This document shows positions 40,537-44,433 of a stretch of DNA of 64,000 bases, one piece after another. The notes under the pieces were generated by a model. That model was not told the origin of the DNA. It searched no databases and saw only the letters and a list, made by a program, of their open reading frames with translations. Location: assembly GCA_025457615.1 (NCBI GenBank), contig JALOTZ010000008.1, positions 1 to 64,000 of the forward strand, written 5' to 3'. This DNA is from Verrucomicrobiota bacterium (GTDB lineage Bacteria > Verrucomicrobiota > Verrucomicrobiia > Limisphaerales > DSYF01). Every line of letters starts with the position of its first letter. Position 1 is the first letter of the stretch. A program made the position numbers and the translations under genes.

Positions 40537-42063
40537 TCAGCGCAGCAAGAACTGCCGGTGCCCGGAAAACACGGGGCGCAGCGACTTGGACAGATCGTCC
40601 TGCAACAACTGCAACTCCTGGTACACCTGGACATGAGCCGCGATGGGCTCCTTGGTTTCCGCCGCATTCAACTGAACGAACTCGTCCGTGAGGTCGCTGA
40701 TCGACACGCTCTCGCCCTGCTGCAAGCGCCAGCACCAGAGTGCTTGCAGCGCCGCGCCGTAAGCCGCGCCCTCCCCGACCTTGAGCGTCACCACTTCCGC
40801 GTTGAACACATCCGCCATGATCTGCCGCCAGATTGCCGAGTTGGCGCCGCCGCCGGTCGCGCGGATCTGGCCGGCGTTCACTCCCAGCTTGGCCAGACGC
40901 CGCAACCCGTAGTTCATACCCATCGTCACCCCCTCCACTGTGCCCCGGGCGAAACATTCGGTATTGAACGTGCGCGGGCTGACACCGAAATACACGCCCG
41001 TCCCATCCGGCACGTTCGGCGTGCGCTCGCCCTCGAGATAAGGCAGGAACATGAGCCCCTTGGAACCGGCCGGACCCCGCGCCACCGTGGCGTCAAAGGC
41101 GCGGTGATCCATCTTGAAATCGCGCCGGATCAGTTCGGTGGCGGCTGTCACGTTCATGGTGCACAGCAGCGGCAGCCAGCGATTGGTGGAATCGCAGAAG
41201 GCGGCGATCTCGCCCTGCGGATCCACCACCGGCTTGGCCGCACAGGCATAGATCGTCCCGCTGGTCCCCAGGCTGGCCGTCACCAACCCCGGCCGGGTGT
41301 TGCCCGTGCCAATGGCGCCCATCATGTTGTCGCCTCCTCCGGCGCTGACCAGCACGCCGGGGTTGAGTCCCAACTCGCGCGCCGCCGCCGCCTGGAGACG
41401 GCCCGCCGGCTGATCACTCGGGATGAGGCGCGGCAGTTTGCCGGCCAGCTCATCGTCAATGGCCCGTAGCGTCCCTTCGCACCAGACGCGCTTGCGCACG
41501 TTCAGCAACGCCGTGCCGCTGGCGTCGCCGTATTCCATCACCCGCTCGCCGGTCAGCCAGAAGTTGAGGTAGTCATGCGGCAACAAGACGGTGGCCAGCC
41601 GGGCATAGTTCTTGGGCTCGTGCTTCTTTAACCAGAGGATCTTGGACGCCGTGAAACCGGGCAACACCGCCAGGCCCTGCTGCTTGATCGTGGCCTTGAC
41701 CCCGCCCAGCTTGGTCATGATTTCCTCGCACTCCACCGCCGTGGACGTGTCGCACCACAGCTTGGCCGGACGGATCACTTCGCCCTGCTTGTCCAGGGGA
41801 ACGAACCCGTGCTGCTGTCCGCTCACGCCGATGGCCACCACTTCCGCCGCCTTGGCCCGCGCCGCGGTCAACGCGCTCCATACCGACTGGGCCGCGGCCT
41901 CGCGCCAGACCTGCGGATGCTGTTCCTTGGCACCAGGCGGGAGATTAGGAATGAGCTCATAGGCTTTCGAGGAGGCCCCCACCACCCGGCCGTTGCTGGC
42001 ATCCACCACCAAGGCCTTGGTGGACTGCGTCCCGGAATCAATGCCAATCAGCAAGTTGCGCAT
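40537..42063 (-). CDS. xylB: Xylulokinase
   Basis: LIGIDSGTQSTKALVVD, VSGQQHGFVPLD, LWCDTSTA, GGGDNMMGAIGTG, TGGGANSAIWRQIMADVF. Confidence 0.92.
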   Translation of the reverse strand: MRNLLIGIDSGTQSTKALVVDASNGRVVGASSKAYELIPNLPPGAKEQHPQVWREAAAQSVWSALTAARAKAAEVVAIGVSGQQHGFVPLDKQGEVIRPAKLWCDTSTAVECEEIMTKLGGVKATIKQQGLAVLPGFTASKILWLKKHEPKNYARLATVLLPHDYLNFWLTGERVMEYGDASGTALLNVRKRVWCEGTLRAIDDELAGKLPRLIPSDQPAGRLQAAAARELGLNPGVLVSAGGGDNMMGAIGTGNTRPGLVTASLGTSGTIYACAAKPVVDPQGEIAAFCDSTNRWLPLLCTMNVTAATELIRRDFKMDHRAFDATVARGPAGSKGLMFLPYLEGERTPNVPDGTGVYFGVSPRTFNTECFARGTVEGVTMGMNYGLRRLAKLGVNAGQIRATGGGANSAIWRQIMADVFNAEVVTLKVGEGAAYGAALQALWCWRLQQGESVSISDLTDEFVQLNAAETKEPIAAHVQVYQELQLLQDDLSKSLRPVFSGHRQFLLR

Positions 42064-42154
42064 TCCCCACTCTTAGCCTCGGCACTCTCGAAATCCACGA
42101 AAAAGTGTGCGCACCCCCACCCCGCGCCGGCCAGGTCAGTGCCGGAGGTTTGCA

Positions 42155-42183
42155 TTGCCAATGCGATCGAAGTCCTGTCTAAT
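42155..42183 (+). promoter_or_regulatory. Putative sigma70-type promoter for the thrS leader
   Basis: TTGCCA (42155-42160), 17-nt spacer, TCTAAT (42178-42183). Confidence 0.5.
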
Positions 42184-42192
42184 CTGGCCCTG

Positions 42193-42231
42193 ATGAACGG
42201 CCTTGTGGGAACAGCCACCACGACGATCTAG
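42193..42231 (+). CDS. Threonine-rich leader peptide MNGLVGTATTTI
   Basis: ATG AAC GGC CTT GTG GGA ACA GCC ACC ACG ACG ATC TAG: 4 Thr codons plus Ile just before the stop, upstream of thrS. Confidence 0.75.
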   Translation: MNGLVGTATTTI

Positions 42232-42296
42232 CGTCCGCCCGCCACCCCGGGCCGGACGCCAACGCCTCAGACCACCCGTCCGGGGCGTTTTTGTTT
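42231..42296 (+). terminator. Attenuator-type terminator with competing antiterminator
   Basis: 1:2 hairpin GCGTCCG 42231-42237 / CGGACGC 42253-42259. 2:3 CCGGACG 42252-42258 / CGTCCGG 42277-42283. Terminator AACGCCTC 42261-42268 / GGGGCGTT 42282-42289, then TTTGTTT. Confidence 0.75.
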
Positions 42297-42306
42297 CCCA
42301 GAATGA

Positions 42307-42422
42307 AACGCAAAGACGCAAGGGCGCAAAGGCGCGGAGAAACTGAATCGAGCGCGGCTGTGTGCAAAGCACCAGCCGCGCTCCGTCCGTCTTGCGTCTT
42401 TGCGTCTTCGCGCCTTTGCGTT
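42307..42422. repeat. CGCAAAG-type palindromic element B (large hairpin) in the thrS leader
   Basis: Left AACGCAAAGACGCAAGGGCGCAAAGGCGC; right CGTCTTGCGTCTTTGCGTCTTCGCGCCTTTGCGTT; inner GAGCGCGGCTG (42350-42360) / CAGCCGCGCTC (42373-42383). Confidence 0.8.
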
Positions 42423-42438: not shown

Positions 42439-44433
42439 ATGCCTGACGAGAACCAACAGCAACCACCACAACCGAACCCCGAGCGCAAGACGCTCGACGA
42501 CCGGGCCAGGATGACCGAGTTGGAGCGCCTCCGGCACTCGTGCGCCCACGTCATGGCCACCGCCATCCTGCGCCTGTGGCCCGACGCGCAATTTGCCTAC
42601 GGGCCGCCCGTCGAGAACGGGTTCTACTACGACCTCGAATGCTCGCACCGCATCTCGCCCGACGATTTCGAGCAGATCGAGGCGGAGATGAAGAGGGAGA
42701 TCAAAGCCAACAACCCCTTTGAGAGAATCGAGGTCAGCCGCGAAGAGGCGCAAAGAGACGCAAAACGCGGGAGGCTTGGCGGGTTGACCGAGAGGCCCAA
42801 CAACCCGAGCAAGTTCAAGCTGGATCTCCTCCAACAAATCCCGGAGGGAGAAAAAATCTCCTACTACAAGAACGGCGACTTCATTGACCTCTGCGCCGGA
42901 CCGCACGTGATGCGCACCGGCAACATCGGCGCGTTCAAGCTCACCACGGTGGCCGCCGCCTACTACAAGGGCGACGAGAAAGGTCCGCAGCTCCAGCGCA
43001 TCTACGGCACCGCCTTCAAGAACAAGACGCAGCTCGACGAGTATTTCAAGATGCTCGAGGAGGCCAAGCGCCGCGACCACCGCAAGATCGGCGCGGAGAT
43101 GGGACTGTTCGCGATTGACCCGGAATACGTCGGGCCCGGCATGCCGCTCTGGCTGCCCAAAGGCACGGCGATCGTCGAGGAGCTGGAAAAGCTCGCCAAG
43201 GAAACCGAGTTCGCCGCCGGTTATGTCCGCGTCCGCACCCCGCACCTGGCCAAGGAAAAGATGTACCTGACCTCCGGCCACCTGCCCTACTATGCCGAAT
43301 CCATGTTCCCGCCCATGACCCTGCTCGAAGGCGAGGACATCGCCCGGCGCCCCGTTCTGCGGGAGAAGTTCCAGGAAGATCTGCACTCCGGAGCGGTCCT
43401 CACGCCTGAGAAAATCGACGCCTTCATCGAGAAGGCGTACCACGTCTTCAAGGCGGAGGGGTTGGAGGGGGATCGTTACTACCTCAAGGCCATGAACTGC
43501 CCGCATCATCACCGCATCTTTGCGGCGGAACCGCGCAGTTACCGCGATCTGCCGTTGCGCATGGCGGAATACGGCTGCTGCTACCGCTACGAGCAGTCGG
43601 GCGAGTTGTTCGGCCTCATGCGCGTGCGTTCGCTCAACATGAACGACGCCCACATCTACTGCACCGAGGACCAGTTCGCGTCCGAGTTCCGGGCAGTCAA
43701 CGACATGTATCTGAAATACTTCAAGATTTTCGGCCTGGAGAAGTACCAGATGCGCTTCAGCACGCACGCGAAGGAGGGCCTGGGCAGGAAATACGTCAAC
43801 GAACCCGAGCTCTGGCTCAAGACCGAGGACATGGTCCGCCGCGTGTTGCAGGAAAGCGGCATCCATTACGTCGAGGTCGCCAACGAGGCGGCGTTCTACG
43901 GGCCGAAGATTGACGTGCAGGTGTGGAGCGCCATCGGACGCGAATTCACCATCGCCACCAACCAGGTGGACTTTGCCGTGCCCGCGCGCTTCGGGCTGCA
44001 GTACAAGGACCGCGACAACACGATGAAGACGCCGCTGTGCATCCATCGCGCGCCCCTCGGCACGCACGAGCGGTTCATCGGCTTCCTCATCGAGCATTAC
44101 GCCGGCAACTTCCCGCTCTGGCTCGCGCCCGAGCAGGTCCGGGTGATGACCATCGGCGAGGACCAGGCGCTGCTGGATTACGCCCAAGGTATCATCAACG
44201 AACTCCGCGCCCACCAGGTGCGTGCGGAGGCCGACTTTAGTCACAACCCCATCAAGGCCAAGGTGGCCGAGGCCGAGAAAGCCCGCGTGCATACCATGCT
44301 CGCCATCGGCCCCCGCGACAGGGAGGGCGGCAACGTCAGCGTCCGGCTCCACAGCCAGGGTCACGTGGGCGCCCGGCCGAAGGACGAGGTGATCCGGGGG
44401 ATCGTCGAGGCCATCCGGGATCGCCGGACGTGA
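42439..44433 (+). CDS. thrS: Threonyl-tRNA synthetase lacking a recognisable TGS domain
   Basis: YKNGDFIDLCAGPHVMRTGNIGAFKL, YLKAMNCPHHHRIF, LPLRMAEYGCCYRYEQSGELFGLMRVRSLNMNDAHIYC, HRAPLGTHERFIGFLIEHYAGNFPLWLAPEQV. Confidence 0.96.
   Translation: MPDENQQQPPQPNPERKTLDDRARMTELERLRHSCAHVMATAILRLWPDAQFAYGPPVENGFYYDLECSHRISPDDFEQIEAEMKREIKANNPFERIEVSREEAQRDAKRGRLGGLTERPNNPSKFKLDLLQQIPEGEKISYYKNGDFIDLCAGPHVMRTGNIGAFKLTTVAAAYYKGDEKGPQLQRIYGTAFKNKTQLDEYFKMLEEAKRRDHRKIGAEMGLFAIDPEYVGPGMPLWLPKGTAIVEELEKLAKETEFAAGYVRVRTPHLAKEKMYLTSGHLPYYAESMFPPMTLLEGEDIARRPVLREKFQEDLHSGAVLTPEKIDAFIEKAYHVFKAEGLEGDRYYLKAMNCPHHHRIFAAEPRSYRDLPLRMAEYGCCYRYEQSGELFGLMRVRSLNMNDAHIYCTEDQFASEFRAVNDMYLKYFKIFGLEKYQMRFSTHAKEGLGRKYVNEPELWLKTEDMVRRVLQESGIHYVEVANEAAFYGPKIDVQVWSAIGREFTIATNQVDFAVPARFGLQYKDRDNTMKTPLCIHRAPLGTHERFIGFLIEHYAGNFPLWLAPEQVRVMTIGEDQALLDYAQGIINELRAHQVRAEADFSHNPIKAKVAEAEKARVHTMLAIGPRDREGGNVSVRLHSQGHVGARPKDEVIRGIVEAIRDRRT

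Follow-up and report, generated by a model that had tools for sequence, protein, structure and literature searches.

Upstream of the gene for threonine--tRNA ligase (thrS) in a bacterium of the Verrucomicrobiota, a short reading frame with a run of threonine codons is followed by a hairpin and a terminator, and the question raised by this arrangement is whether thrS is governed by a ribosome that translates a leader peptide and, if so, by which step the position of that ribosome would be turned into termination or readthrough. The window, that is, the whole stretch of 64,000 nucleotides analysed (contig JALOTZ010000008.1), had led to an original prediction of attenuation of the E. coli thr and trp kind, and all the elements named in it were verified base for base in the sequence. 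The features of the locus are the following:

40537-42063, minus strand: xylulokinase gene, the divergent upstream neighbour (window annotation)
42155-42160, plus strand: -35-like element TTGCCA, which recurs in relatives with N17-TANNNT at a fixed spacing to the leader start
42178-42183, plus strand: -10-like element TCTAAT, N17 after TTGCCA and 9 nt 5′ of the leader ATG
42193-42231, plus strand: leader ORF MNGLVGTATTTI, with ATG at 42193 and TAG at 42229-42231; probably leaderless, conserved in 110 leaders
42211-42225, plus strand: control codons ACA-GCC-ACC-ACG-ACG, with Thr enrichment at the matching codons in the 110 leaders
42229-42231, plus strand: UAG stop, whose G is the first base of hairpin 1
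42231-42259, plus strand: hairpin 1 (segments 1:2), GCGTCCG 42231-42237 pairing with CGGACGC 42253-42259
42261-42296, plus strand: intrinsic terminator, with an 8-bp stem AACGCCTC 42261-42268 / GGGGCGTT 42282-42289
ending at 42296, plus strand: T-rich tract of the terminator, TTTTTGTTT (window sequence)
42252-42258 and 42277-42283, plus strand: candidate 2:3 pairing, CCGGACG with CGTCCGG, a complementarity of 7 bp
42439-44433, plus strand: thrS, threonine--tRNA ligase, with ATG at 42439 (TIGR00418, 575.8 bits)

As the xylulokinase gene runs divergently on the minus strand, the plus-strand terminator (42261-42296) ends no upstream gene, and since its pattern occurs a single time in the 3.33-Mb genome, it does not simply represent the type of terminator usual in this genome. 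The RNA from 42180 to 42300 is predicted to fold into hairpin 1 and the terminator, with a z of -3.1 against shuffles. The leader region has no match among the Rfam families at gathering score, nor to the T-box models at E up to 5, and the leader has none in plasmid records. Between the terminator and thrS lies a REP-like 29-nt inverted repeat, AACGCAAAGACGCAAGGGCGCAAAGGCGC (window 42307-42422), pieces of which recur in the window, with similar repeats in the leaders of relatives; the matches to miRNA families in a permissive Rfam scan correspond to an inverted repeat of this REP-like kind.

The thrS gene was located in 144 of 146 relatives, and in about half of the approximately 70 whose upstream DNA was examined there is a short Thr-rich ORF, a stop codon, a hairpin, and a terminator ending in GCGTTTT. 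A covariance model built from 35 leaders matches 136 of the 293 genomes of the host order at E up to 0.01, some 118 of them strongly (these E-values are rough), with one strong match per genome in nearly all cases. Throughout 390 genomes of the phylum, nothing but the window itself matches strongly; six matches of lower score (E 9e-7 to 8e-4) were rejected, as they have no thrS downstream and resemble ordinary terminators. When 110 matches were read closely, thrS was found downstream in 106, and the contig ended in the other 4. The distance from leader to gene in the 106 goes from directly adjoining up to 1465 nt, and in around a quarter of the leaders thrS starts no more than about 30 nt past the terminator, so that expression there needs readthrough. 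This order-wide conservation makes a chance origin of the leader untenable. At certain thrS genes of the host order (L007, L008, L009, L043, L044, and L052) no leader is recognisable in the 1.5 kb upstream, and at these it is lost or replaced; in the source genome, a rough scan upstream of 10 other synthetase genes recognised no similar leader.

All 110 leaders contain a short ORF of 8–15 codons that ends in the pattern Thr-Thr-Thr(-Thr)-X-stop, with threonine at codons -2, -3, -4, and -5 in 106, 103, 99, and 64 of them, respectively. The first and second bases of these codons are nearly fixed and the third is mixed (at codon -2, G 40, T 33, C 30, and A 7). The Thr codons are among the columns of the covariance model, and the alignments lean to it, and for this reason the count was repeated in 76 held-out leaders, from genomes outside the training set: threonine occupies the same four positions in 72, 72, 66, and 45 of them, and at least 3 of the final 6 codons are Thr in 69 of the 76, the figures for the other two frames being 0 and 0. 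Such a pattern of codons indicates that the leader ORF is under coding selection for threonine; the threonine-codon leader peptide first proposed for the window alone is borne out by in-frame codons conserved across the host order. The stop codon (TAG in 99, TAA in 9, and TGA in 2 of the 110) always stands at the foot of hairpin 1.

An explanation that does without a sensor is that the locus encodes a small RNA, or that an ORF has arisen by chance before an ordinary terminator, and indeed the terminated product, of about 105 nt, could have a role of its own. This is scarcely credible, because the leader is conserved upstream of thrS only and its variation is synonymous and in frame; as the sole explanation it is refuted by the Thr-codon counts in the 76 held-out leaders.

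The promoter and the start codon lie outside the covariance model, and they therefore provide an independent check of the leader. A promoter of the form TTGCCA-N16–18-TANNNT can be clearly recognised in 68 leaders, and in 87% of these the first in-frame ATG, GTG, or TTG is found 5–9 nt past the -10 element, mostly at 6 nt, whereas in the other two frames of these 68 a start codon never falls at that distance. Transcription starts approximately 7 nt after the -10, so that here it would begin at the start codon, and the ORF is probably leaderless, its RNA starting at or within a few bases of that codon. The near-leaderless start suggested earlier thus finds its counterpart in the promoter-start geometry conserved among relatives. 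The leader RNA of Sinorhizobium meliloti trpL likewise starts at the start codon of its ORF (PMC7298713), and mycobacterial poly-Cys ORFs are leaderless according to Canestrari 2020, as cited in PMC13236596; these share the type of start with the thrS leader, and differ from it in amino acid, gene, and lineage.

The two hairpins are maintained as well. Compensatory changes occur in 5 of the 7 pairs of hairpin 1, where 97% of the alignment cells are paired, as are 96% in the 8-bp terminator stem; taken together, 96% of the cells pair and 7 of 15 pairs show double changes. When the segments of each leader were compared with those of other leaders put in their place, hairpin 1 reached a z of -21 and the terminator one of -9, and the covariation looked for in the 1:2 and terminator helices is therefore present. 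APC-corrected mutual information over the leader alignment gave no extra covarying helix. The geometry is also constant: segment 1 begins at the last base of the stop codon or directly after it, the Thr codons sit wholly 5′ of segment 1 and of its hairpin, the gap between hairpin 1 and the terminator is 0–1 nt in 70 of 99 leaders and does not exceed 3 nt in 96 of them (range 0–4 nt), and the stop codon is 24–31 nt from the terminator. Hardly any variation is seen (alignment A2, columns 26-28, 54-56, 62-66, and 91-95) in the lower stem of hairpin 1 or in that of the terminator, GCGU/ACGC and ACGCCUC/GRGGCGU, which have GCGU/ACGC in common, while the pairs in the upper part of hairpin 1 covary freely. 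One divergent leader, L184 (G071), has a hairpin 1 that by eye overlaps the 5′ arm of the terminator by several bases, and there the two would be mutually exclusive.

A short ORF rich in cognate codons and an intrinsic terminator between that ORF and the gene, which characterize leader-peptide attenuators, are thus both found before thrS, and it is highly likely, from conservation at the level of sequence, that the leader is a ribosome-mediated threonine leader-peptide transcription attenuator of this gene.

The near-invariance of the lower stems could also be understood if a protein, ThrRS or another, bound to them, the leader ORF being secondary. TGS is part of the N-terminal region used by E. 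coli ThrRS as repressor. The ThrRS of the window has editing, catalytic, and anticodon domains (Pfam PF07973, PF00587, and PF03129), and no TGS domain was found in it with Pfam; moreover, the loop of hairpin 1 is variable, with no conserved anticodon motif. It is true that E. coli ThrRS binds its own mRNA, repressing translation through anticodon-like hairpins in the thrS operator (PMC11088916). That operator has the same target gene, but it acts on translation and belongs to a ThrRS with TGS, and neither that domain nor anticodon-like hairpins of the E. coli type were recognised at this locus. Protein binding would leave unexplained the selection on in-frame Thr codons and on the position of the start codon, and it is very improbable as the main explanation. 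A T-box, with its family match, specifier loop, and UGGN antiterminator bulge, was not recognised either. Alternatives to ribosome control are weak.

The ThrRS genes of several relatives present a peculiarity of their own. In L039, L040, L041, L043, and L055, thrS consists of two pieces, with the break between class II motifs 1 and 2, and N-halves are seen in L046, L051, L053, and L111; the N-half ends in a conserved tail, ..MDEHR..RIAELEKQLADYAKK*, and at the start of the C-half there is a separate Met, with a helix that is also conserved, MSAILKDEEFVAVEAAVKAG..AFNELSALRAELKKLGE, which suggests a ThrRS of two pieces held together by a coiled coil. Between the halves there are 3–5 kb of cargo, consisting of an AccI-like restriction-modification pair in L040 and of an OLD/GajA-like ATPase with a DUF2130 protein in L039. 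Two further genes, L049 (G031) and L108 (G017), have a long in-frame insertion at the same site, which by eye resembles a REP-associated (RAYT-type) transposase.

If the leader senses threonine, how would it switch? According to the original prediction, which followed the classical trp/thr type, a ribosome that stalls at the Thr codons hides segment 1, so that segment 2 is free to pair with segment 3, within the loop and 3′ arm of the terminator, and the terminator is blocked. The window does contain these 7 bp, and most relatives could form a 5-bp core of it, YGRAC/GUYCG, with 67% of the cells in these columns paired against 28–42% in slid controls. However, double changes are found in 0 of the 7 pairs, as against the 7 of 15 for hairpin 1 and the terminator; putting in the segments of other leaders makes the pairing no worse (z +0.6); A.C mismatches are not depleted at the R:Y position that varies; when segment 1 is covered in folding, the terminator still forms with P 0.89–0.91; and segment 2 with the 5′ part of the terminator is less structured than shuffles. 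Trp and his leaders have their control codons in segment 1, so that a stalled ribosome covers it. Here, the Thr codons are entirely upstream, neither inside nor overlapping segment 1, and as this segment starts at the stop codon, a ribosome stalled at the first of them should not cover it.

A conserved 2:3 antiterminator exclusive with the terminator was thus not found, the trp/thr-type switch is unlikely, and the 7-bp match of the window would probably have arisen incidentally, for the most part, from the resemblance in sequence between two conserved stems. In other words, of the attenuator first proposed, the Thr leader peptide, hairpin 1, and the terminator stand, conserved upstream of thrS, and the 2:3 switch does not. 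Other pairings were rejected, since those of segment 1 with the terminator 5′ arm, of the ORF with the terminator, and of the ORF with segments 1 or 2 are not significantly better than swapped ones; an extension of hairpin 1 by the ORF into the terminator 5′ arm reaches P of about 0.33 before the 3′ arm exists, but swapped ORFs do so equally, and once the 3′ arm is there the terminator prevails in folding.

In the ViennaRNA fold, hairpin 1 (P 0.98) and the terminator (P 0.96) lie side by side, so that base pairing predicts no mutual exclusion, and as the two only abut, any effect of one on the other would have to be steric or kinetic. Feedback requires that thrS be induced on threonine shortage, and therefore a hairpin formed during stalling should favor readthrough. 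A ribosome covers about 10 nt 3′ of its A site (PMC4824070); applied to the leader, this means that hairpin 1 stays free while the ribosome stands at codon -5 or -4, that its first 4–5 pairs are opened when the ribosome is at codon -2, and that segment 1 is covered once the stop codon is reached. The leader would then work as follows. The RNA would start at or beside the start codon of the 8–15 codon ORF, as the conserved geometry indicates, and a ribosome, presumably loading on this nearly leaderless RNA, would meet the Thr run one sense codon before the stop. With ample Thr-tRNA, it would reach the stop codon, cover segment 1, and melt hairpin 1, and the terminator would fold and end transcription. 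With scarce Thr-tRNA, it would wait at the upstream Thr codons, so that between it and the RNA polymerase hairpin 1 would form, and this hairpin, 0–1 nt from the terminator and perhaps with the ribosome behind it, would press on the base of the terminator and sterically or kinetically hinder its closure, so that thrS would be transcribed. Hairpin 1 would thus be an antiterminator, unlike its anti-antiterminator role in trp/thr leaders.

This switch step, an antiterminator melted by the ribosome that reaches the stop codon, is put forward tentatively, with base pairing neither supporting nor excluding it; it is a better fit than the trp/thr type to an anatomy in which the stop is fixed at the foot of hairpin 1, the linker is short, the Thr codons are upstream, and there is no conserved 2:3. 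With somewhat more reserve, it may be that the whole order has such an inverted attenuation, with a leaderless Thr peptide and no 2:3, in which completion of the peptide is OFF and lack of translation is ON. It could also be supposed that the stalled ribosome blocks termination only by its nearness or coupling to the RNA polymerase, with hairpin 1 as a pause signal or spacer, and to this correspond the conserved spacing from stop to terminator (24–31 nt) and the repression by ribosomes of E. coli terminators near a stop codon (PMC4824070). But in that case a ribosome at the stop would repress termination more than one stalled upstream, which would turn the feedback in the wrong direction unless the path were shortened by hairpin 1, and this reading is decidedly improbable. 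In any case, the leader is very probably a real threonine sensor that apparently does not switch in the textbook way.

Among known systems, E. coli thrL and pheST (pheM) likewise have a short ORF of cognate codons, an intrinsic terminator, and the ribosome as sensor, and pheST is also an attenuated synthetase operon (PMC1262725); the thrS leader differs from both in having no conserved 2:3, control codons upstream of segment 1, and a probably leaderless start, and also in its target, since thrS in E. coli is governed by the binding of ThrRS. Closer in the order of events is Mycobacterium tuberculosis ilvB1NC, for which it has been proposed that the ribosome at the ilvB1 stop codon masks the antiterminator, whereas upstream stalling lets it form (PMC13236596), as proposed here for thrS, and in Corynebacterium glutamicum ilvBNC the antiterminator hairpin adjoins the terminator (PMC11857589), similarly to the thrS leader. 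In these ilv leaders, however, the antiterminator either shares bases with the terminator, as in C. glutamicum, or is described as excluding it, whereas those of thrS abut at 0–4 nt with no overlap, and gene, amino acid, and phylum are different. Before Bacillus hisS paralogues, histidine leader peptides replace the T-box (PMC2965389); they precede a synthetase, as the thrS leader does, with another amino acid and in another phylum. No description of a thrS leader peptide was found among the open papers searched, although Lopatovskaya et al. 2010, who reportedly compared attenuation across synthetase operons, might give related predictions.

A survey of 2010 knew leader-peptide attenuation only in Proteobacteria, Actinobacteria, and some Firmicutes (PMC2965389), and the thrS leader probably extends it to a new bacterial branch, the Verrucomicrobiota, while the feedback control of thrS, known from the T-box and the ThrRS operator, would take yet another form. 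Codons, stop, hairpin, and terminator keep a fixed geometry in the more than 100 natural variants of this leader, with no conserved base-pairing antiterminator, and such a set lends itself to the question of whether an intrinsic terminator can be switched by nothing more than a hairpin that abuts it or a ribosome close by.
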